A DNA stretch of 55,299 nt from Bacteroidota bacterium (GCA_947459245.1 CANHCV010000010.1:1-55299); one strand, 5' to 3'. Shown: positions 17,910-55,299, counted from the first letter of the stretch. The notes: a model not told the origin generated them from the letters alone. Numbers and translations: made by a program.

Positions 17910-19748
17910 TTACTCTACGGTAACCGATTTTGCAAGGTTTCTCGGCTGATCCACATTGCACCCCCTCATTACAGCAATGTGATACGACAGTAACTGCAAG
18001 GGAACTACGGTTAACAAAGGCAACAAAGGATCTGGAGCATCAGGGATTTCAATGATGTAATCGGCCAACGCTTTAACCTCGGTATCACCCTCGGTAACAA
18101 TGGCAATTACATTTCCTTTTCGTGCTTTTACTTCCTGAATATTGCTTACTAACTTATCGTATTGAGCGCCTTTCGGAGCAACAACAATGACAGGCATTGC
18201 TTCATCAATTAAAGCAATGGGTCCGTGTTTCATTTCGGCTGCGGGATATCCTTCGGCATGGATGTATGAAATCTCCTTCAATTTCAGCGCACCTTCCAAT
18301 GCAACGGGGAACAAATAGCCTCTTCCCAAATAGAGAGCATTGGTAGAATCTTTGATCTTTGCTGAAATCTCTTCAACAAGTGCATTGACTTTCAAGCATT
18401 CTTCAATTTTTGAAGGAATTTGCTCCAATTCCGTCATCAAAGAAAGCGTTTCCGTTTGCGACAAATTTCCTTTTTCTTTTCCGAGCCAAATGGAAATCAT
18501 GGTTAACAAAGAAACTTGAGCGGTGAAAGCCTTTGTTGAAGCAACACCAATTTCTGGTCCGGCGTGGGTATATGCCCCCGCATGAGTTGCACGAGGAATG
18601 GAAGCACCAATAACGTTACAAATACCAAAAATGGTAGCTCCACGTTGTTTGGCCAAGTCAATAGCAGCGAGCGTATCGGCCGTCTCCCCCGATTGAGAAA
18701 TAGCGATTACAACATCGTTTTGATTGATTACCGGATCGCGGTAACGGAACTCGGATGCGTATTCAACTTCAACGGGTATGCGGGCAAACTCTTCAATAAG
18801 GTATTCCCCAACCAAACCTGCGTGCCAAGAAGTTCCGCAAGCAATGATGATAATTCGGTTGGCATTAAGAAATTTAGCACGGTACTCTTCCAATCCAGCC
18901 ATTTTAATGGTCCCTCCATGCAAATCCAAACGACCACGTAGAGAATCGGTAATGGCTCTGGGTTGCTCAAAAATTTCTTTGAGCATAAAGGAATCGTATC
19001 CACCTTTTTCAATGGCTTCCAATTCCATTTCAATTTCTTGAATTTTTGCTGTTTTTACCTCATTTTGAATGGTTTTTACGATGAAATGATGATCATCGCA
19101 AACCACCATTTCAGAATCGTTAAGGTAAACCACTTTCTTGGTGTATTCAATAATGGGAGAAGCATCGGAAGCGAAGAAAAATTCTCCAATTCCAACTCCT
19201 AAAACCAGCGGACTGCCTTTTCGAGCAGCCACCAATTTGCGTGGTTCTTGGGTATCCATCACCACAATGGCATAGGCTCCATGTACCTCGTTCAAGGCTA
19301 CCCGAACTGCTTCATCAAAAGGCAAATTCTCCTCCAACATGATGTCCTCGATAAAATTAACGAGAACTTCGGTGTCCGTATCACTTACAAAATCAACGCC
19401 TTTGGATTGCAAACGTACTTTCAAGGCGCTAAAATTTTCGATAATGCCGTTGTGTACAATGACTAATCTTTTATGAAAAGAAACGTGAGGGTGTGCATTT
19501 CGATCGTTGGGTTCACCGTGAGTAGCCCAACGCGTATGACCAATTCCGATCGTTCCTTCATGGATTCCAGCATCAACCAGCTTTTGAAGATCGGAAACCT
19601 TTCCGGCTGTTTTATGAACTACAAACGATTCATTCTGATTCAAACAAATTCCAGCACTATCATAACCTCGATACTCAAGTCGTTGAAGTCCTTTCAATAA
19701 GATGGGAGAGGCTTGTTGTTTCCCCACATAGGCTACTATTCCGCACAT
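17910..19748 (-). CDS. glmS: Glutamine--fructose-6-phosphate aminotransferase (isomerizing)
   Basis: MCGIVAYVGKQQASPILLKGLQRLEYRGYDSAG; two SIS domains; C-terminal RNLAKSVTVE. Confidence 0.97.
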   Translation of the reverse strand: MCGIVAYVGKQQASPILLKGLQRLEYRGYDSAGICLNQNESFVVHKTAGKVSDLQKLVDAGIHEGTIGIGHTRWATHGEPNDRNAHPHVSFHKRLVIVHNGIIENFSALKVRLQSKGVDFVSDTDTEVLVNFIEDIMLEENLPFDEAVRVALNEVHGAYAIVVMDTQEPRKLVAARKGSPLVLGVGIGEFFFASDASPIIEYTKKVVYLNDSEMVVCDDHHFIVKTIQNEVKTAKIQEIEMELEAIEKGGYDSFMLKEIFEQPRAITDSLRGRLDLHGGTIKMAGLEEYRAKFLNANRIIIIACGTSWHAGLVGEYLIEEFARIPVEVEYASEFRYRDPVINQNDVVIAISQSGETADTLAAIDLAKQRGATIFGICNVIGASIPRATHAGAYTHAGPEIGVASTKAFTAQVSLLTMISIWLGKEKGNLSQTETLSLMTELEQIPSKIEECLKVNALVEEISAKIKDSTNALYLGRGYLFPVALEGALKLKEISYIHAEGYPAAEMKHGPIALIDEAMPVIVVAPKGAQYDKLVSNIQEVKARKGNVIAIVTEGDTEVKALADYIIEIPDAPDPLLPLLTVVPLQLLSYHIAVMRGCNVDQPRNLAKSVTVE

Positions 19749-19751
19749 ACG

Positions 19752-21077
19752 TTATGGTATTTTGGTGTAAATGATGGTTAGTTTAGGCGGTTTGATGGAT
19801 TTGTTTGAATTTAAAACAACCCTTGTTCCGTCCTGGATTCCATTCGAAGATAAAATATAAAATCCGTAATCGTTCGACTGGTAAATAAGTTTTTGAAAAT
19901 ACTGGGTAAGATTTAATTCGTAAACGTTTTTGGTTGAATTGAACTGTCCTCCAAAATAGTCAAAAAACTGATCGGGAATTGGGTTTGATTTTCCATTGGA
20001 ATCAATGGCTACAATTCCAATCCTTGGAGTAATTTGATTGGATGTTTTTATTTGGGAAGGATGAACAGGAAACTCAAAAGTGGCCTTTTGAATCACAATA
20101 TCTTTATTGGTAAGAATGCTTCTTAAATTGGAAACGGTCATTTTTGTTTTAAATCCGGCCATTCCCTCAACGAATAATTTATCTTGGTTAACTTGGCCGG
20201 AATTTTTAGCCAGTTGAGCTTCCGAGTTGAAAAATTGGTAATCAAAGGTATTCTTCCAAGCGCAAGAAGAATTTACATTGAAATCATACCGTTTGAATAG
20301 GCCACCATCGTGGTAATAAATGTTCAACCCCGAGAGCGAAAGCGCTGGAGCCAAATAAACCACTAACCCATTTCCAGAGATCAATTTAGCTTCTACGGAA
20401 AAACCATTGAAGTAATTCAGAAAATCGGCCGAAGAACTGGTCTTATTGGAAAGCATTAAAGTTCTCGCCAAACCGGTATCAATGGGAATGCGCAACATGG
20501 CATTTCTCGTTACCAAAGTATCTCCACCTGATCCCGTTGGCTCACGGTACTGCTTCGCTACGGAAGGTTGAATGGCCCGAAAGGTAGCACCTCCTACCCG
20601 ATTAAGTTGGGTAGTAAAATCTGAAAACTGAGAATAAACAGAATCCGAATAAATTCGCTTGCCTAAAACCTTAACGGTAACTTGAAGCACGGAAGTTGTA
20701 TCTCCAAAATACCCAAGGTAAGGGAACGATAGAAATGCAGAATCGAGTTTAAGGTTAGTAAAATTTGGAGTTAACGCAGTAGAAGGAATAATTTGGGTGC
20801 AAAATTGAGCAGAAGTCCTTCCAAATTGAGGATCATTAAGAACTCCAAGCAAATGACGACCCGTGTTTCTTATTTGCAGTGTATCTTCCCTTTGAATGGA
20901 AAACTGAAGGGGGAACGTATCAACCAATTGCGTGGTTAAATCATCCCCAATCAATGATAAGCCAACATCACCATCTTTTCGACAAGAAAAAAACAGCATA
21001 ACCCCAATGATGGGGAAGAGCAATTTACTTAAATTCAACTTATTCGAAAAGCGATTGGTAAAAGGACTTGAATTCAT
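19752..21077 (-). CDS. DUF4270 family lipoprotein
   Basis: Lipobox GVMLFFSCRKDGDVGLSLIGDD; DUF4270-like 'LGVLNDPQFGRTSAQF...LDSAFLSFPYLGYFGD'; overlaps the glycogen synthase-like gene, as is usual in Bacteroidota. Confidence 0.85.
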   Translation of the reverse strand: MNSSPFTNRFSNKLNLSKLLFPIIGVMLFFSCRKDGDVGLSLIGDDLTTQLVDTFPLQFSIQREDTLQIRNTGRHLLGVLNDPQFGRTSAQFCTQIIPSTALTPNFTNLKLDSAFLSFPYLGYFGDTTSVLQVTVKVLGKRIYSDSVYSQFSDFTTQLNRVGGATFRAIQPSVAKQYREPTGSGGDTLVTRNAMLRIPIDTGLARTLMLSNKTSSSADFLNYFNGFSVEAKLISGNGLVVYLAPALSLSGLNIYYHDGGLFKRYDFNVNSSCAWKNTFDYQFFNSEAQLAKNSGQVNQDKLFVEGMAGFKTKMTVSNLRSILTNKDIVIQKATFEFPVHPSQIKTSNQITPRIGIVAIDSNGKSNPIPDQFFDYFGGQFNSTKNVYELNLTQYFQKLIYQSNDYGFYILSSNGIQDGTRVVLNSNKSIKPPKLTIIYTKIP

Positions 21078-45745: not shown

Positions 45746-47545
45746 TTAATCTTTCAAAAACTTAAAATAAATCCTTTCTCCATGAACATTGATGTTCAAA
45801 AACATCAAACCGTGCATGGAAGGATTCAATTGAATTTGTCCATCAAAAATGAAGCCACTTTGCATTTTCTGTCCCATTGATGAATAAATTTCAAAACTTG
45901 GACTTTCTAAAGTGTTTAATCCTGAAATAAACAGTTGTTCTTGGGCCGGGTTGGGATAAACTGAAATGGATTCTCGTTGAAGATCCTGAGTCGGGATTTT
46001 CAAATTGGCTCTTTTCCCTAGAATTGGACGCATCATCCAAGCACCAGGAATTCCGGAAGATTGCCAGGTTCCCGCTACATTGTAAAACATGTTCGAATTA
46101 GCCGTATCATTTCGATCTAACCCCAAACTCAATACTTTATCGGTATTCTGCTGCCAACCGATGTAAAAGGTATCTGAAATTGCAATGGCCGAATCAAAAT
46201 CATAATTCACAAATCCATTGTAAAACCGCTGGTATTTAGGCTTTTGAAAGTTAGACTGATAGATGAGTTGTTCCCCTTTGCCGGTGCCTGGTTCGGGAAT
46301 GGATTTCCAAACCATCAAGGTAAACAATTCCCTGGAAACATCAGTTTTTATGGGAATAAATGACAATGAAACTCCTCTTAATGAATCTGCTCGGGTAGAA
46401 ATAAACCGATAAGCAATTCTTCCTCCATTGGTATTCAAGCCGTAACCGTATTCTGCGGTTCCGTCATCGTAAGCATATTGATTATAGAAAACATACCTTC
46501 TTTTGATCGTATCATTGGATTTAATGATGGAGCTGTTCGAACCAATGGAATAAACCGCATCCAATTCAAAAGAATCGGTCCCGATAAGCGGAATAGAAAA
46601 TGGAAAATACGTGCGGGTATTGCTGGTTGAATTCGCCACAAGTGACTGAGAATGTATTTGAAATCCACTTCGTGGTTCCACATAACTTGCTGCGGTAGCG
46701 ATGGTTTGAATTCCATACCCCAAAACATTGAAGGTCGTTTGATGGCCGTTGGATAAAAATCGGGATGAATCTGATTTAAAATGCAAATATGGAACCTGTG
46801 TAAATCCGTTTTTTAAAAGATTCCCTGGTGTTGTACTGTAAGCAAAATCGTAAACTACGGTATCATTGTACAACCGATTTGCGGCAAGGCGAACATAATC
46901 AACATGCCAGTGGTCCAAAAATCCAACCAAACTGCTATAGTTACGAATTCGGAAACGAAAACCCGAATGTAAAAAATTGGTATCGATAACTGGAATTAAA
47001 ACCTGTTTCCAAACACCCACCGAAGTTCCCGGAGTGCCCCAAACGGTATTCCAAAATCCATTTTTGTTGTAGAAATCCACGACCAAAGAATCGTTGATCT
47101 CCGGTGCCTCTCCTAACCCTTCGGCTTGGTAATAAAAACTCAAATAAATGGAATCTGAACCTCTGCGATTTTGTAATTGAAAGGCTTTTGAAGATAGTGT
47201 ATCGCTCGGACCCGACATTCCAACGGCTTGAATATCGTAAGGCAACCCTTGTTCATTCAATCCATCGAAAGTTGCAATGCCCAATGTAGGAGCATTTACA
47301 GACATGTGGTTATTAACGTAAACCTGATAATCCATCCAATTGGAAGAATTAGGAAAAATTTCGGTGGATGAAAAATCATCTTCAAAAGGTAGATTGAGCG
47401 TGTCTAAACGACCAAAAAAACGGGAAGAAACTCTTTTATCAAATTCATTTTTCACGCGAATATTTTGTGAAATAACAGCGGTTTTTTCCTGGGAAAACAG
47501 AAAAATGGGACAAAACAAAAGAAGAAATATGTTGAATTTAGTCAT
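45746..47545 (-). CDS. T9SS type A sorting-domain secreted protein
   Basis: Signal peptide; C-terminal ISVYPNPAQEQLFISGLNTLESPSFEIYSSMGQKMQSGFI...LMFLNINVHGERIYFKFLKD. Confidence 0.82.
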   Translation of the reverse strand: MTKFNIFLLLFCPIFLFSQEKTAVISQNIRVKNEFDKRVSSRFFGRLDTLNLPFEDDFSSTEIFPNSSNWMDYQVYVNNHMSVNAPTLGIATFDGLNEQGLPYDIQAVGMSGPSDTLSSKAFQLQNRRGSDSIYLSFYYQAEGLGEAPEINDSLVVDFYNKNGFWNTVWGTPGTSVGVWKQVLIPVIDTNFLHSGFRFRIRNYSSLVGFLDHWHVDYVRLAANRLYNDTVVYDFAYSTTPGNLLKNGFTQVPYLHFKSDSSRFLSNGHQTTFNVLGYGIQTIATAASYVEPRSGFQIHSQSLVANSTSNTRTYFPFSIPLIGTDSFELDAVYSIGSNSSIIKSNDTIKRRYVFYNQYAYDDGTAEYGYGLNTNGGRIAYRFISTRADSLRGVSLSFIPIKTDVSRELFTLMVWKSIPEPGTGKGEQLIYQSNFQKPKYQRFYNGFVNYDFDSAIAISDTFYIGWQQNTDKVLSLGLDRNDTANSNMFYNVAGTWQSSGIPGAWMMRPILGKRANLKIPTQDLQRESISVYPNPAQEQLFISGLNTLESPSFEIYSSMGQKMQSGFIFDGQIQLNPSMHGLMFLNINVHGERIYFKFLKD

Positions 47546-48332
47546 TCCCGCCTTCTTGGTTTACAGGTTTCTCCGAATTGGGTTTAATGGCCAATTCAAT
47601 GCGAGTTCCTATTCTAATTTGATCGATAAAATGTGCATCGGGTTTTTGTCTTTGCACCCAAAATTCGGAAGAATCACCATCAAGTTCGCCTCTTACAAAC
47701 ACTTCAATACCTTTTGAATTGGCCAATTGGATGGCTTCTTGCAGGGATAAACCGGTTAAAATTGGATTTTCAATAAGGGAATCGAGGGAAGCAACGGCCA
47801 TCACTAAATCGATGATGGTTCCTTTGGGTAATAGCTGCCCAAATTTTACTGTTTTTCCGTTTGTTTTTGATTCCAAAACATAGGTACCATTTTTCACCAT
47901 ATCGGTTGGGCGCTCTTCTGTTTCACCCAAGCGAAAGCCAGCGTTTTCGATGAGCGCTTTGGTCATTCTCATGGAATACCCTTCTTTAACCGGATAAGGG
48001 GTTTTGGGAACATCGAAAGCGGTAACCGAGACATAAATTTTTCGACCATTTTTAACAAATGAAGCCGGTTTTGGATCTTGTTCCATGATCATTCCTCCGG
48101 GTTTCCCTGGGAAATACGTTGAATCGGTAATCACATACTCAAAATCATTTGGATTGTCTTCTTCTTCAACGAGAGCGTACGATTTGCCGATAAGGTTAGG
48201 AACAGGAATTTTCTCACCATGCCGGGTGTACGATTTTGCCCACTGCAAAACCACAAAAATGATCACCAAAAAAATCAATAAGGCTAAACTGCCTTGAATC
48301 CACCATGGTTTTCTTTTAAGATTCTCCAACAT
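47538..48332 (-). CDS. PASTA domain-containing membrane-anchored protein
   Basis: N-terminal TM (LALLIFLVIIFVVLQW) and PASTA units (IPVPNLIGKSYALVEE..., YPVKEGYSMRMTKALIENAGFRLGE, ILTGLSLQEAIQLANSKGIEV). Confidence 0.88.
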   Translation of the reverse strand: MLENLKRKPWWIQGSLALLIFLVIIFVVLQWAKSYTRHGEKIPVPNLIGKSYALVEEEDNPNDFEYVITDSTYFPGKPGGMIMEQDPKPASFVKNGRKIYVSVTAFDVPKTPYPVKEGYSMRMTKALIENAGFRLGETEERPTDMVKNGTYVLESKTNGKTVKFGQLLPKGTIIDLVMAVASLDSLIENPILTGLSLQEAIQLANSKGIEVFVRGELDGDSSEFWVQRQKPDAHFIDQIRIGTRIELAIKPNSEKPVNQEGGND

Positions 48333-51003
48333 GAATTCGCTCCTTTCCAAAATTTAATATCTGCTCAATGAACTCCACCGGTTTGTATCCGCTCAATGCA
48401 CATTGATGAAAAATGCAAGTTGCGGGTGTCATTCCAGGCAAAGAATTCACCTCAATGATGATCGTATCAACGTTGTTTTCATCGAAAATCCTAACAAATG
48501 CGTCGATTCTGCAATAACCAGTAACACCGAGAATTTCGGCTGCTCTTTTCAAATCCGACTGCACTTTCAATGAAATTTTCTTCGCTTTGATGGGATCTAA
48601 ATCATAACGTGCCGGGGTGATGTTTAGTCCTTCTCCGGCTAAAAATTTCTCTTCTAAACTAAGAACTTCTGAAACGGCCACCGACTCGCTGGGTTCAAAC
48701 GTTTCGTAAACGAGTTGGCCGTTTTCGTATTTCGTAAGCATCCCACCGGTTACCTCCAAGAAATGTTTTGCGCCGTGAGAATCAATAAATTCTTCAAGTA
48801 GAAACACCGATTTCATTGGGAATTCTTCTTTCATTTGCAATCCTAAAACTCTGGCATCTTGCTCATTGAGCTCTTCGGAATCTCGGAAAATCAATCGGCA
48901 AAACGATTCCAATTCTTGGCGCGTTTTAATTTTTTTCACCGCACTGGAACATCCATCGTCAACGGGTTTTGCAATAAACGGAAACGGAAAATCAGAAACA
49001 ATCTCATCCATTAACTGCGATCCTTTTTGGATCCAATCGGTTTTATCAATCAATCGGTGTTGGGCAACAAGGAAACCGTGTTGTTTGAGAACTTCTTTGG
49101 TTTTATACTTATCGATGGTAAGTGCTGCTCCTGCCGGCATGGATCCATTGAAGGGAAGTCCCACTTGAATCAATCGTTGCTGTAGGGTTCCATCTTCTCC
49201 TGGGCGACCATGAAGAGCAATAAAAACCTCTTCCACCCTAGACTTTAACTCCTCAAAAGTAATTTCCTGTGGAGACAAAATGCTGTCTTGAGCAAAAAAA
49301 ATCGTTATTTCCGATGCTTCCTGCTGAATTTTTTGAAGAATGGGATGAACCGTATAGTGGTTTATTTTCTCTTTAATGTCATCGGCATTATCTTTCAAAT
49401 GCAAATTCATGGGAATGGCATGCAAATGAAAATGATCAGCATCTCCAGAAAGGAAAATGGAAATGGGCCTAAAAATTCCTGATGATGCCAATTTTTCAAA
49501 AACATTTCTTCCACTTTCCACACTGATGTGTCTTTCGCTACTATACCCCCCCATAATCACTGCGATGTTCCGAAGTGAATGACTTGGCGATTGAAAGGAT
49601 TGAACCAAATGGTCCAAACGAACCAACAAACTTTCCAGTTGTCGGGCATAAAACCCTTTTCTTTTTCGGGCAACCAAGGATGTTCGAATGATGTAGGTTA
49701 AAAACTGGGATGGATTTAAACCCATTTCTGCAGCTTGATGGAAAAAGAATGAACTGGGCATCATCCCTGACGTGGTGTTCGGATCGTTCAAGAAAATGCG
49801 CCCATCTTCACCAAAAAAACCATCAATTCGAGCGTAAACGTCAAAATGAAAGGTTTTAAAGAGGGAAACACAATGCTCTCGAATGGACTCAATGTGAGCC
49901 TCTTCCAATTCAATAGGAGTAACTTTTCTACTTAAACCGGGCAAGTATTTTGAACGGTAATCGAAAATTTCATTGCCTTTCACAATTCCTGTTGGAGGAA
50001 GTGCGAGGGGTTCACCGTTCATGTTTTCAACAACAATGCAGGAAAACTCCTGACCTGAAATGAAAGCTTCAACCAAAACCGTGCACTCACCGTCCAACGC
50101 TTCCAAAATCAATGATTCATCATTATCTGAAAAGTATTCTTCCAAGGTTTGGTACAAATCATCGGGGTGAAATATTTCTCTTTGGAGGGTTTCCGACCAA
50201 ACGGGCAACCCAATTCCACTGCGAATATCAATGAAATCTTTGATCCAATTGATTTTTTCAATGTTTGAACTCTTTTTCCAAAGGTCTGCTTGAATCTTTT
50301 CAATGAAAAGCGCTTTAGAAACTGCTTTTGAAAAAGATTCATAATCATCAACCTCTACTACAGAAATTCCGATGGAACTTCCTTGATTCGCAGCTTTGAT
50401 GACCATGGGCAAGCCAATATCGGAAAGTACTTGGTGGTAAAAATCTCGTTTATTGGCTTCATTTTGCCATTCATCTCGGGAGAAATGAATGTAGGATGGA
50501 ACATCGAAATCTCCCTCCATCATTTCTTTTTGAATGGCTTTGTTCATGCCAAACGCACTCGGAAGAATTCCAGAACCGGTATAAGGAATTCCAAACCATT
50601 CCAGCAGACCCTGCAATTTTCCATCTTCCCCATTCACTCCATGAAGCGCCAAAAAAGCAACATCAATCTTTTCTTTAAGTTCCTGAATGGAAAGAACATG
50701 GCCTAATCCTTCAAGCAACTGAAGCTCTTCTTGTTTGTTTGACGGATGAAGTGATTCAGCATAAAATTGAAATCCAAACTTGGATTTCATGTGCTTGGAA
50801 GAAGGATAAAAATCACGAATGCTTCCTTTGTATAAAAAGGACCAATGCAGCTCGATGAAATTTCCGAAACTATCTACAAAAATGGGGATAGGTTCAAAAA
50901 TTGCCTTGTTCAGGTTATCGAAAACCGTTCTTCCGCCAGCGAAAGAAATTTCTCTTTCCCTGGAATTTCCACCAAAAAATATTCCTACGCGAATCCGATC
51001 CAT
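48316..51003 (-). CDS. ddl: Double-length D-alanine--D-alanine ligase (two tandem Ddl/ATP-grasp modules, 895 aa)
   Basis: Module 1: FFGGNSREREIS, ALHGVNGEDGKLQGLLE, ANQGSSIGISVV, FDYRSKYLPG, FLNDPNTTSGMMPSS. Module 2: IMGGYSSERHIS, ALHGRPGEDGTLQQRLI, IAKPVDDGCSSAV, EKFLAGEGLNITPAR, IIEVNSLPGMTPAT. Confidence 0.88.
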   Translation of the reverse strand: MDRIRVGIFFGGNSREREISFAGGRTVFDNLNKAIFEPIPIFVDSFGNFIELHWSFLYKGSIRDFYPSSKHMKSKFGFQFYAESLHPSNKQEELQLLEGLGHVLSIQELKEKIDVAFLALHGVNGEDGKLQGLLEWFGIPYTGSGILPSAFGMNKAIQKEMMEGDFDVPSYIHFSRDEWQNEANKRDFYHQVLSDIGLPMVIKAANQGSSIGISVVEVDDYESFSKAVSKALFIEKIQADLWKKSSNIEKINWIKDFIDIRSGIGLPVWSETLQREIFHPDDLYQTLEEYFSDNDESLILEALDGECTVLVEAFISGQEFSCIVVENMNGEPLALPPTGIVKGNEIFDYRSKYLPGLSRKVTPIELEEAHIESIREHCVSLFKTFHFDVYARIDGFFGEDGRIFLNDPNTTSGMMPSSFFFHQAAEMGLNPSQFLTYIIRTSLVARKRKGFYARQLESLLVRLDHLVQSFQSPSHSLRNIAVIMGGYSSERHISVESGRNVFEKLASSGIFRPISIFLSGDADHFHLHAIPMNLHLKDNADDIKEKINHYTVHPILQKIQQEASEITIFFAQDSILSPQEITFEELKSRVEEVFIALHGRPGEDGTLQQRLIQVGLPFNGSMPAGAALTIDKYKTKEVLKQHGFLVAQHRLIDKTDWIQKGSQLMDEIVSDFPFPFIAKPVDDGCSSAVKKIKTRQELESFCRLIFRDSEELNEQDARVLGLQMKEEFPMKSVFLLEEFIDSHGAKHFLEVTGGMLTKYENGQLVYETFEPSESVAVSEVLSLEEKFLAGEGLNITPARYDLDPIKAKKISLKVQSDLKRAAEILGVTGYCRIDAFVRIFDENNVDTIIIEVNSLPGMTPATCIFHQCALSGYKPVEFIEQILNFGKERIHVGES

Positions 51004-51006
51004 GAA

Positions 51007-53922
51007 TTATCGAACAATCAATCGTTGTTGGAAAGGAAACCCATTGCTCATCCATTTCACCAAATAGAATCCGGGATCCAAATTGTGATTCCATGCTTGA
51101 TTTCCTAGAATTTGGGAATGAATCACTTTTTTACCTTCAACATTATAAATCTCTACCGATTGGTATCCTTCAAAAGGAAAAACCAAATGATCGTTGGAAG
51201 GATTGGGATAAATCAATGTTTGAGGTTCACCGATGCATTGGCAAGATGAATTGGGATCGTTTTCGGTGATGGTTAAAGTAAATACTGGGTTAATTCCTAG
51301 GGAAACTCCAGCAGTGTTATTCACGAGCTCGAATCGAATAACCCGATTGGAATTAAAGGTAGAATTGTCGATCACGGTTACGGGAATGGCAACTGTATTG
51401 GCGTTTTTATTCAAAGCAAGGGTGATGGTATCGGCAACAACTGCGGGATTCGTGGTGTAATTGGTTCCGTAAACGGCCCCGCCACTCACGTTCGAAACAG
51501 CAACTTTAACCACTTCATTGGAAAGCATGGTGGAATTTAAGGAAATGGGAAGATTGAAAACCCCTCCATTTTCTGCAATAGATCCTACCGATTGACCGAA
51601 GTTAATTTGAGGATTGGTTAATGGAATAATATCGGTCGTTCTTCGGGGTAAAATTTGATAACCGGAGGTGTAGGGAGCCGAATTATCAAATTGGGTTTGA
51701 ATTCCAATCACACTAAACAAGGAATTTGGAGCAGTGGAACCATCGATGTTGGTATCGCTATCAATTCGCATGGTTACCGTATCCGTTCCGTTGGTGATGG
51801 TAACATTGGCACTGCTGTTTGCTGCTGGCCACTGCGTTGGATTAACCAAACGGTATCCGTTCAATTGAATCAATTTAGATTCCTGAGATTCGATGAGGGA
51901 TGTAACCGTAGAGGGTGGATTGACCGTATTTCCTCTTGAAACAATCGCCATAGAGTCGATGGTTAATTGGGTTAATCCGTTGAATTGCGACACCTTTCCG
52001 ATAACTCGAAGTTCATCACCTTCGGTTACGGTATAGGGTGGTGCAACGTTGGAACTTTTGAAGGCCGTAATCGAACCCGAAGCATCGTAAAGAGCAAATT
52101 GCAACCCATTGGTGCTGTAGTTCACCGAGTTAACAATTCCTACAATTTTACAATTAACGTTCAAGGAATCCGAAACACCCGTGGTTGCATTGCTGGTGTT
52201 GATGGTACCAATGGAATACGTTGGAATGGAAGATGGGGCAACAGCCGAATCATCGTCTGTGATCGAAATCAACGTAACATTTTGAGTTCCAATGACCAAT
52301 CCGGAAGTCGCAGAAATCATTCTAAATCGAATGGAACGAGCTGGATCAATGATGGAATTATTGATGGGTGAAAAAGCAAACGATGCGTTGGAAGCACCGG
52401 AAGGAATGATTAAAGTTAAGGTGTCATTCACCGCTGCAGGATTCGTTAAATAATCCGTTCCATAGAGCGGTGTACCGGCAACTTGAATCAACCGCATTTT
52501 TATCGTGTCGATTCGAGAAGTAGGAAGTGTAAAGGTGAGAAAAACCGAATTCGAACCGGATGACTCTCCAAATGCTGCGCTTGAATTGGCAAAGTTGATG
52601 CGATTTACGGTTGGTTGAGCACCTCTGATAATATCGTTGGTATCTCTAGGGAAAATTTGATATCCGCTGGTGTAAGGACTAGAATTATCAAACTGACTTC
52701 CAATTCCAATGAGGTCGAAGGTACCTGAAGGCGCTGGAGATCCATCTATACTTCCATCTAAATCAATACGAATGGTGAACGTATCAACCCCGTTCGTGGC
52801 CTGAACATTGGCATTTGAACCCGCCGCTGGCCATTGGGTTGCATTCACCAAAGTAAGGCCATTAATCCTTACCAATTTTGATTCATTAATTTCGCCCAAT
52901 GACGTAACCACCGAAGGGGTGTATATGGGATTACCGGAAGAAATAATCGACATGGAATCCATGTTAATTTGGGTTAACCCACTGAATTGAGAAATTTTTC
53001 CATAAATAGAAACACGATCTCCCTGATTTACCGTGTAGGGGGGCGTTACATTGGTTGCTTTAAATACTCCAATTCCACCGGTTGAATCGAACAACGTAAA
53101 TTGCAATCCACTGGTGCTGAAGTTTATTCCAAGAACGGTCCCAGTCAATTGGCAATTCACATTGATAGAATCGGCAACACCCGTAGTTGGATTAATTCCC
53201 GTTACTCTTGAAATGGCATATTGGGGCAAACTTCCGGTTGGATTCCCACCACCACCGCCGCCGCCGGAGGTGTTGTTAAAAAACACCCAATTTGGCCAGG
53301 CGGAAACGCCTCCCAAATTAATGGAATCGGCTGTAATCCAGTTGGCTGTATCGTTAATCATGGTTAGAACAGCAGGAACGGTTCCGTTGGTGGTATCGAT
53401 TCGGTAGTAACCATTGGAACGCAATCTTACGAATTGGAAGGCGTTGGTTCCAAGTGTTAATGACGGTGGCAAATAACTCGTATTGGAAGTTGCAGCGCCA
53501 GCATTAATGAACGGTTGGGTTGCTATTCCAGCAATGAAAGAAGGATTTCTCATCGATCCTTGAATGGCAAATAGGTTTTCTCCAGTTTGAGATAATGCAG
53601 ATAAAGCACCAACACACGTTCCACCGGTATTTGCAACAGCTGGCGAAGCAGAGCAATTCATGATGGTCACTTGTCCTTTGGTTAACGCTGGAGTGGTCCA
53701 AACCATGGTATCTTCATTTGCTCGAAATGAGCTGGTTGAATCCCATGCACGATCGGTAAAAATAATCACGGTTCCAGCGGGAATATTTGTTGTGGCAACG
53801 AATGCAAAATAATCAGCGCTTCTGGTTTGAATTCCAATGAATTGAAGATCGCCCGGATTAAGATTTTGGGCTTTTAAATTGCCAAAAATGGCCAGCAACA
53901 ATAAGATCGTAATTTTTTTCAT
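51007..53922 (-). CDS. T9SS type A protein with an N-terminal lamin-tail/nuclease-associated-like domain and two tandem OB-like + Calx-beta-like units
   Basis: Signal peptide; GDLQFIGIQTRSADYFAFVATTNIPAGTVIIFTDRAWDS; duplicated 'VNCxxxGxVxxxNxSTxGLQFxLxDxxGxIxxFKxxNVxPPYTVxxGDxxxxxGKxSQFxGLTQ' units; CTD LIYPNPSNDHLVFPFEGYQSVEIYNVEGKKVIH. Confidence 0.78.
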   Translation of the reverse strand: MKKITILLLLAIFGNLKAQNLNPGDLQFIGIQTRSADYFAFVATTNIPAGTVIIFTDRAWDSTSSFRANEDTMVWTTPALTKGQVTIMNCSASPAVANTGGTCVGALSALSQTGENLFAIQGSMRNPSFIAGIATQPFINAGAATSNTSYLPPSLTLGTNAFQFVRLRSNGYYRIDTTNGTVPAVLTMINDTANWITADSINLGGVSAWPNWVFFNNTSGGGGGGGNPTGSLPQYAISRVTGINPTTGVADSINVNCQLTGTVLGINFSTSGLQFTLFDSTGGIGVFKATNVTPPYTVNQGDRVSIYGKISQFSGLTQINMDSMSIISSGNPIYTPSVVTSLGEINESKLVRINGLTLVNATQWPAAGSNANVQATNGVDTFTIRIDLDGSIDGSPAPSGTFDLIGIGSQFDNSSPYTSGYQIFPRDTNDIIRGAQPTVNRINFANSSAAFGESSGSNSVFLTFTLPTSRIDTIKMRLIQVAGTPLYGTDYLTNPAAVNDTLTLIIPSGASNASFAFSPINNSIIDPARSIRFRMISATSGLVIGTQNVTLISITDDDSAVAPSSIPTYSIGTINTSNATTGVSDSLNVNCKIVGIVNSVNYSTNGLQFALYDASGSITAFKSSNVAPPYTVTEGDELRVIGKVSQFNGLTQLTIDSMAIVSRGNTVNPPSTVTSLIESQESKLIQLNGYRLVNPTQWPAANSSANVTITNGTDTVTMRIDSDTNIDGSTAPNSLFSVIGIQTQFDNSAPYTSGYQILPRRTTDIIPLTNPQINFGQSVGSIAENGGVFNLPISLNSTMLSNEVVKVAVSNVSGGAVYGTNYTTNPAVVADTITLALNKNANTVAIPVTVIDNSTFNSNRVIRFELVNNTAGVSLGINPVFTLTITENDPNSSCQCIGEPQTLIYPNPSNDHLVFPFEGYQSVEIYNVEGKKVIHSQILGNQAWNHNLDPGFYLVKWMSNGFPFQQRLIVR
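51230..53237 (-). repeat. About 1-kb intragenic tandem duplication (OB-like + Calx-beta-like unit x2)
   Basis: Copy 1 about 53237-52231 (SLPQYAISRVTG...ITDDD), copy 2 about 52230-51230 (IPTYSIGTINTS...ITENDP), aligned along most of their length at protein level. Confidence 0.75.
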
Positions 53923-53978: not shown

Positions 53979-55299
53979 TTATTGAATCGCACCTTTTTCT
54001 TTCAAAAAGTTCAAAAAACTTTCATACTGATACTTTTTGAGGACTTTCGGAAATTTCACTTGGGCTCCTGATTTCCCTTGATCTGCCAACCAATCCACAA
54101 ACAATTGAGGATGAATCACATTGATTCTGAGATTCTTAATGGCATTCTTTCGTTCCACGCGATAATCGTCGTTGATGTGGCAAAGGACCTCATCAATTTT
54201 TTGCATGATCGAATTGGAATCGATGTTTTCTTCGCAAGCAACAAACCAATGGTGGGCAAACAAACTTCCATCCGGCACTCCAGCAACGGTAAACTCGGGC
54301 AAGGAAACATTGAAAAATTCACTGGTTTCACGAACAGCCCGAGCCATGTTTTCCATGCTTAAATGCTCTCCACAAATGGATAAATAGTGCTTCGTTCTTC
54401 CAACAATTTTAATATCAAATTTCGAATGGGAAACAAACTTCACAACGTCTCCAATCAAATACCTCCAAGCGCCTGAACAAGTGGAAATCACCATCGCATA
54501 TTCTACAAAGGGTTCAACCTCGTTCAAGGTTATGGCCTTCGCGTGAGGCAACAGCGCTCCATCTTCCGAAAAATTCTCCGAATCGAACGGAACAAACTCA
54601 AAAAAGATTTGATTACCGGTCATTAAACGCATTCCCGTACTCTTGGGCGTTGCTTGATACGCGAAAAATCCTTCCGAAGCCATGTACGTATCAAAATACA
54701 ACACCTCTCTCGAAAACATTTCCTCAAACTTCTTTTTAAACGGATCAATCATCACTCCTCCGTGAACCAAAACTTGGAAATTAGGCCAAATGTCGTGAAT
54801 GGTCTTCACTTGGTAATGCTCAATGATTCGCTCCATGATGATTTGAATCCACGAACATGTACCCGTAACAACACCCACGTTCCAGTCCTTAGCATTTCGT
54901 ACAATTTCATCAATTTTCTCTGGCCAATTTTTCTGAGCTCGGATTTCAGGAGGAGGAACCGACATGGGGCGGAACCAAAATGGAAGATTTCCCGTGGTAA
55001 TTCCACTTAAATCTCCCGAAAAATTTACGCCATTCCATTCTAAATCGGTGCTTCCGCCAATCATCAACGTTTGATGGGTTAATGCTTCGCGCCCTTGCGC
55101 TGTTTTCAGCAGAGCTAATGTTTGTTTAAGACCTCCGCGTTTAATGGCTTTCACCATTTCCTTGGTTACGGGAATAAATTTTGAAGCGTCTTCAGAAGTT
55201 CCCGAACTTAAGGCAAAAAAGGGAACAACCCCGGGCCAACAAACTTCTTTTTCTCCGTTAAAGGACTTTTGCCACCAAGGATACATTCCCGAATAATCC
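53979..55299 (-). CDS. GH3 auxin-responsive-promoter-like family protein (acyl-adenylate-forming), N-terminus beyond right edge
   Basis: FFALSSGTSEDASKFIPVTKEM; MIGGSTDLEWNGVNFSGDLSGI; FDTYMASEGFFAYQ; ISTCSGAWRYLIGDVVKFVSHSKFDIKIVGRTKHYLSICGEHLS: GH3 motifs. Confidence 0.92.
   Translation of the reverse strand, partial: DYSGMYPWWQKSFNGEKEVCWPGVVPFFALSSGTSEDASKFIPVTKEMVKAIKRGGLKQTLALLKTAQGREALTHQTLMIGGSTDLEWNGVNFSGDLSGITTGNLPFWFRPMSVPPPEIRAQKNWPEKIDEIVRNAKDWNVGVVTGTCSWIQIIMERIIEHYQVKTIHDIWPNFQVLVHGGVMIDPFKKKFEEMFSREVLYFDTYMASEGFFAYQATPKSTGMRLMTGNQIFFEFVPFDSENFSEDGALLPHAKAITLNEVEPFVEYAMVISTCSGAWRYLIGDVVKFVSHSKFDIKIVGRTKHYLSICGEHLSMENMARAVRETSEFFNVSLPEFTVAGVPDGSLFAHHWFVACEENIDSNSIMQKIDEVLCHINDDYRVERKNAIKNLRINVIHPQLFVDWLADQGKSGAQVKFPKVLKKYQYESFLNFLKEKGAIQ

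Follow-up and report, generated by a model that had tools for sequence, protein, structure and literature searches.

A two-module D-Ala-D-Ala ligase, probably the only Ddl of a Bacteroidota bacterium, with two differently conserved active sites

The only D-Ala-D-Ala ligase (Ddl) of many Bacteroidia appears to be a fused pair of modules with two different, strictly conserved active sites. Such a double is encoded in the window, i.e., the whole 55,299-nt stretch of Bacteroidota bacterium DNA that was analysed (GCA_947459245.1 CANHCV010000010.1:1-55299). According to the reading that we favour, with a probability of about one half, module 1 would make D-Ala-D-Ala, and module 2 would be a second working site with an altered acceptor pocket. 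Ddl is known as a textbook single-module essential enzyme and a target of D-cycloserine; its canonical form has one module of about 300-370 aa, which is able to pair non-covalently.

Results

Gene, protein and genomic neighbour

The fusion of two Ddl modules in one 895-aa ORF, as put forward in the original prediction, is confirmed by Pfam, in which Dala_Dala_lig_N and Dala_Dala_lig_C are each matched twice, far over the cut-off (whole-protein scores are 161.9 bits for PF01820 and 179.1 bits for PF07478), and by TIGR01205 (D-alanine–D-alanine ligase), with 354 bits versus a cut-off of 245.65. By profile the protein is thus a Ddl, and it does not reach the narrower equivalog models. All motifs quoted in the original prediction are present in the ORF (Table 1), and both modules have the complete Ddl domain order and the HGxxGED motif. 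The modules are approximately 22-24% identical to each other (BLASTP of the halves gives E = 6e-27 at 24% identity). The plus-strand translation of 48316-51003 is full of stops and the coding strand is the minus strand, which the original prediction had not stated.

The PASTA gene noted next to ddl in the original prediction is also confirmed: its ORF overlaps the ddl stop codon, with its ATG lying 17 nt inside ddl. A PASTA homologue is located immediately downstream in 45 of the 84 loci tested, and in one genome (G447) a 1200-aa ORF genuinely joins the double Ddl, TM and PASTA parts (Ddl–Ddl–TM–PASTA) in one frame.

Table 1. Positions of the double Ddl gene, its modules and motifs, and the adjoining gene in the window (residue equivalents according to E. 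coli DdlB)
Feature	Position	Strand	Remarks
Fused two-module D-Ala-D-Ala ligase, 895 aa	48316..51003	(-)	Single uninterrupted ATG ORF; stop codon 48318-48316
Module 1, residues 1-448	49660..51003	(-)	Conventional E15/S150/Y216-type Ddl active site
Module 1 GGNSREREIS	50944..50973	(-)	E16 = Glu15 equivalent, invariant 81/81
Module 1 QGSS loop	50374..50385	(-)	S209 = Ser150 equivalent, invariant 81/81
Module 1 DYRSKY	49945..49962	(-)	K352/Y353 = K215/Y216 equivalents, both invariant 81/81
Module 1 NDPNTTSGM	49762..49788	(-)	D407 (E270), N409 (N272), S412 (P275), invariant 81/81
Inter-module linker, residues 449-477	49573..49659	(-)	Weakly conserved, Ka/Ks 0.26
Module 2, residues 478-895	48319..49572	(-)	Ddl module; Cys150 and Phe216 equivalents invariant
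Module 2 GGYSSERHIS	49522..49551	(-)	E490 = Glu15, H492 = E17 position; invariant 81/81
Module 2 DDGCSSAV loop	48937..48960	(-)	Ser150 -> Cys685; Cys in 81/81 doubles
Module 2 LEEKF	48643..48657	(-)	K215 = K786, Tyr216 -> Phe787; Phe in 81/81 doubles
Module 2 IEVNSLPGMTPAT	48418..48456	(-)	E270, N272, P275, G276 kept; S281 -> T862; 80/80 complete sequences
PASTA-domain membrane protein	47538..48332 from its ATG	(-)	Next gene after ddl, same strand

Sole Ddl of the genome and distribution among relatives

In the 99.96%-complete genome PF01820 has two matches, both inside the 895-aa ORF. The remaining PF07478 matches belong to ORFs of 422-1062 aa, all without PF01820, which we assign by their size to the common ATP-grasp enzymes, biotin carboxylase and CarB for example. 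A separate canonical ddl elsewhere in the genome is rejected, as the 895-aa ORF is the sole PF01820 gene. For the same reason, the protein, originally suggested to be the main peptidoglycan D-Ala-D-Ala ligase of the cell, is probably the only one. Since murF and alanine racemase (alr) genes were found in the genome, the pathway around Ddl looks complete, and from this setting together with the sole-Ddl status we infer that the 895-aa protein carries out D-Ala-D-Ala ligation. A search of the genome for a VanX-family peptidase (PF01427) returned none, so that nothing points to a D-Lac system of the Van type.

Sixty relatives were compared, and most of their genomes encode one Ddl, as a full-length double or as a single-module protein. 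In the class sample (296 same-class genomes, each at least 90% complete) the double profile is matched in 130 genomes, namely by 128 full doubles (in some of them a contig end interrupts the gene) and by 2 truncated forms; the matches cover 73 of the 165 genera. In a phylum sample, which was drawn differently, only 8 of 393 genomes have the double profile, and the class figure therefore reflects spread over families rather than population frequency. Double genomes show two PF01820 matches, both in an approximately 900-aa frame where listed, and single-Ddl genomes usually show one. No additional Ddl beside the double was detected among the 128 full-double class genomes; a third PF01820 match, present in two genomes (G075 and G078), is in both cases a piece of the double gene. 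In three families (f46, f54, and f63) double-bearing and single-Ddl genomes occur side by side. A canonical single Ddl can therefore replace the double, and it is to such replacement that the mixed families point.

Several apparent variants of the architecture were discarded. Split genes (632 + 288 aa in G036, and others) are not fissions, but contig breaks, because both pieces end at contig ends. As for the long ORFs of G631 (1389 aa) and G186 (1007 aa), considered as possible new fusions, they owe their length mainly to read-through upstream of the gene in high-GC DNA; the latter also contains an insertion.

Active site of module 1

Residue numbers follow E. coli DdlB, to which the doubles were aligned through the module alignment, and all invariance counts refer to 81 distinct doubles, most divergent members included. 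According to these counts, E15, S150, K215, Y216, R255, D257, N272, G276, and S281 are invariant in module 1, so that the catalytic triad E15-S150-Y216 is complete in 81/81 doubles. Of the Mg/phosphate residues, R255, D257, and N272 are kept, and E270 is replaced by Asp; this change and P275 to Ser occur in all 81 doubles without exception. Position 282 is Phe in 73 and Leu in 8 doubles, and an insert of about 70 aa lies between the Ser loop and E180.

Active site of module 2

Module 2 keeps another set of residues: E15, K97, K144, S151, E180, K215, R255, D257, E270, N272, P275, and G276 are invariant (one of the 81 sequences ends before E270), which includes all Mg/ATP residues, among them R255, D257, E270, and N272. 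The fixed changes are S150 to Cys, Y216 to Phe, E17 to His, and S281 to Thr. The halves have thus diverged in different ways, as originally noted, with distinct substitutions fixed in each module in 81/81 doubles. Instead of E15-S150-Y216, module 2 has E-C-F in all 81, and because of this triad we refer to it as Ddl-like by profile and fold and do not call it a canonical Ddl site. Among 45 single-module Ddl proteins, Ser150 is present in 45 and Tyr216 in 44; the sole Phe216 belongs to the Ddl of Latilactobacillus curvatus and falls in the same alignment column as the Phe of module 2.

The change of Tyr216 to Phe (EEKF versus EAKY), missing from the original prediction, is the most diagnostic difference of module 2. 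Phe216 does not fix the product, since E. coli DdlB Y216F stays partly active on D-Ala. In lactic acid bacteria, the choice of Phe or Tyr at this site decides between depsipeptide and dipeptide activity, and L. curvatus is among the species with a Phe-type, vancomycin-resistant Ddl (PMC5996685, citing Park and Walsh for the former).

Compared with its 95%-identical counterpart in an independent assembly (L039), the double gene of the window gives Ka/Ks values of 0.045, 0.045, and 0.26 for module 1, module 2, and the linker, respectively. The two modules are thus under equal purifying selection, and module 2 shows no decay in the lineage of the window.

Truncated forms

Three genomes of one family (G228, G263, and G620) carry 561-590-aa forms consisting of the whole module 1 and a stub of module 2, and Bernardetia sp. 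Wsw4-3y2 has a 623-aa truncated form on a plasmid. The stub has about 100 residues matching the N-domain profile of module 2 (E from 3.7e-15 to 4.3e-6) and no match to the module 1 profile (best E 0.018); compared profile against profile, the values are 5.6e-15 for module 2 versus 0.27 for module 1. Since the stub matches module 2 and not module 1, the truncated forms are former doubles. In the three genomes of the family the truncated form is the only PF01820 gene; for Bernardetia the sequence covers the plasmid only.

Asp270 is common to module 1 of the doubles and of the truncated forms, and thus module 1 with Asp270 is sufficient for the essential reaction in these three genomes. For the same reason, namely that a decayed gene of module 1 plus stub remains the only Ddl, module 1 is very probably the D-Ala-D-Ala site. 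The NDPNTTSGM loop was also considered as the mark of a damaged half, which is rejected, as module 1 with Asp270 is the sole Ddl in the lineages that lost the catalytic part of module 2. The truncated forms carry Pro275 and Leu282, whereas the doubles carry Ser275 (81/81) and mostly Phe282, i.e., the acceptor loop of module 1 varies with the presence of a catalytic module 2. The idea that the stub is retained as a dimer surface is unsupported: it represents the first half of the N-domain, seemingly without the published interface helices.

Origin of the two modules

In the tree, module 1, module 2, truncated forms, and single-module proteins each lie on one side of a branch, and the singles are split from both module groups with support 97/90. 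In place of Pro284, present in 43 of 45 singles, the two modules and the truncated forms carry Phe (or Tyr), as part of a Phe(Tyr)-His/Gln-Gln stretch shared by both modules. The split and the shared stretch favour one tandem duplication as the source of both modules. By AU test, two other placements of module 2 stay unrejected: with a lactic-acid-bacterial ligase (p = 0.303; no clade in the best tree), and apart, with E. coli DdlB and the lactic-acid-bacterial ligase (p = 0.43). The tree of the halves that had originally been proposed for dating the duplication keeps the modules together and apart from the singles, but given the AU tests, module 2 may instead have been a foreign ligase that became fused to module 1.

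Predicted structure

The AlphaFold2 model of the double, built with seven sequences as input, has moderate confidence (pLDDT 74, pTM 0.76), with values below 50 for the catalytic loops. Foldseek pairs one module with DdlA-type Ddl structures; for the full chain there is a weak similarity to carbamoyl phosphate synthetase (TM 0.42 on the query). Structures of single Ddl enzymes have a recurrent dimer arrangement in common (PMC6899670); the covalent pseudo-dimer named in the original prediction would be a possible pairing of the two modules.

Discussion

Proposed function

Under the favoured reading, module 1, having a conventional Ddl site, would make D-Ala-D-Ala, which MurF would then attach to the peptidoglycan precursor. 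Module 2, linked to it in the same chain, would most likely be a second working ATP-grasp ligase site that still binds ATP/Mg and activates D-Ala. With Phe216 and Cys150 fixed in all doubles, its acceptor pocket would be altered, and it might accept another second substrate or a wider range of them, such as D-lactate, D-serine, or another D-amino acid; alternatively, its acceptor might be D-Ala used with different kinetics. Altered second-substrate specificity was already suggested in the original prediction; it appears plausible and becomes more specific given Y216F and S150C. That both sites work, the product of each, and any pairing of the modules are inferences, and the invariant residues of module 2 may instead be conserved for ATP binding alone.

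Alternative explanations

Both modules may make D-Ala-D-Ala, the double being an ordinary covalent pseudo-dimer or dosage fusion in which Cys and Phe are neutral or tune the kinetics. The dimer arrangement shared by single Ddl structures (PMC6899670) agrees with this, as does the fact that within a family one canonical Ddl can stand in for the double; moss, with a reported double DDL, also accumulates an Ala-Ala-ended pentapeptide precursor (PMC9434261, PMC9954125). However, the module-specific substitutions are fixed in 81/81 doubles and C150/F216 never revert, which neutral drift would not give, and we regard this explanation as possible, if rather improbable.

It is unlikely that module 2 is a catalytically silent half, binding ATP and D-Ala and controlling module 1 as a regulatory or scaffolding partner. 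Such a role would fit the change of two of the three triad residues, the non-catalytic piece of module 2 that truncated forms keep on module 1, suggesting a structural role, and the occurrence of P275S (and mostly Phe282) in module 1 only where a catalytic module 2 is present. Against this, not one of the ATP/Mg residues of module 2 varies, K215 and the two ATP lysines included, a degree of conservation uncommon in so old a pseudoenzyme.

A bolder version of the favoured reading, in which module 2 is a dedicated D-Ala-X ligase (making a depsipeptide or mixed dipeptide) and the family is the bacterial source of the plant plastid double DDL, seems to us quite doubtful. If true, a large part of the Gram-negative Bacteroidia would make peptidoglycan precursors that end in either of two ways, by means of one two-headed enzyme.

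The inverse assignment, with module 2 as the real ligase and module 1 as an altered partner, might be suggested by the textbook E-x-N-x-x-P-G loop of module 2 and by E270D and P275S in module 1, but lineages in which only module 1 is catalytic, with Asp270 too, have no other Ddl, and the E-S-Y triad of module 1 is complete, which makes this assignment highly improbable. Finally, an artefact of assembly or annotation joining two genes, named in the original prediction as a possible refutation, is ruled out by the full-length L039 gene from an independent assembly and the same architecture in 128 class genomes.

Implications

The double could reveal the workings of the second unit and the source of the plant fused enzyme. 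Both the role of a Phe/Cys-type second site in a Gram-negative cell wall pathway and the derivation of the plant fused DDL, from a bacterial double gene or otherwise, are directly testable. The double also matters for annotation, because an automatic label would read simply D-alanine–D-alanine ligase, as it does for the truncated form of the Bernardetia relative.

Comparison with known systems

Regarding canonical Ddl (TIGR01205, PF01820 + PF07478), the double has the same catalytic Lys/Arg/Asp/Glu-or-Asp/Asn set and the same pathway position, but comprises two diverged modules per chain, each with fixed non-canonical residues. The D-Ala-D-Lac ligases of lactic acid bacteria (e.g., LmDdl2, PDB 1ehi) resemble module 2 in having Phe at 216 (F787 of module 2), but are single-module; in addition, the L. 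curvatus enzyme keeps Ser150, whereas module 2 has Cys150 in 81/81 doubles. The large subunit of carbamoyl phosphate synthetase (CarB) likewise consists of two fused ATP-grasp halves with different jobs, but uses different substrates and has no close sequence kinship beyond ATP-grasp. The MurC-Ddl fusion (NCBIfam NF011171) also contains a Ddl module within a longer fused protein, its partner, however, being MurC and not a second Ddl; the 895-aa protein scores 161 bits against this model, with a cut-off of 1015.

No description of a double Ddl in bacteria was found in the literature searched (open-licence papers). The nearest likeness is the plant DDL, which also has two Ddl modules in one polypeptide: according to one paper (PMC9954125), the DDL of Arabidopsis, in common with that of moss, joins two putative DDL enzymes and occurs throughout the plant lineage. 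Another (PMC9434261) reports that the nearest homologues of P. patens Ddl by identity are those of the Fibrobacteres–Chlorobi–Bacteroidetes group and that moss accumulates a UDP-MurNAc-pentapeptide precursor ending in Ala-Ala. In contrast to the bacterial double, the plant gene is nuclear and plastid-related; a putative bacterial origin of the plant double DDL is an attractive idea. The two-module Ddl architecture is already known in plants, and the bacterial version is a new variant.

Neighboring genes and related architectures

Two genes lie upstream of the double-module ddl gene on the same strand. The first stops 4 nt ahead of the ddl start codon; its 971-aa product carries a type IX secretion sorting tail and matches an OB-fold weakly. 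The second, a GH3-family gene, is located near the end of the window.

Features in the window and in related genomes
Feature	Location	Strand
971-aa protein	window 51007-53922	-
GH3-family (auxin-amide-synthetase-like) protein	window 53979-55286	-
623-aa truncated Ddl	NZ_CP147018.1 (locus L080, 5998-7869)	
827-aa ORF	genome G000, contig C35, ~18475-20832	

In genome G447 (loci L084 and L161), a single 1200-aa reading frame joins the double Ddl in frame to the membrane-anchored PASTA protein, with the domain order Ddl-Ddl-TM-PASTA, an arrangement that would hold the ligase at the membrane. As for family f45 (L142-L148), whose genomes are small (1.8-2.3 Mb), module 1 carries Thr in place of Ser151 and Leu in place of Phe282 (E. 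coli DdlB numbering), with the remaining catalytic positions fixed. The truncated form of Bernardetia sp. Wsw4-3y2, which consists of module 1 and a module-2 stub, is carried by a 602-kb plasmid; it is annotated simply as D-alanine-D-alanine ligase, and no PASTA gene is annotated adjoining it.

The 827-aa ORF of G000 matches both MurF and alanine racemase, i.e., it is a predicted MurF-Alr fusion, and a separate MurF is encoded on contig C37 of the same genome. MurF-Alr would be a second fused enzyme in the pathway shared with Ddl.
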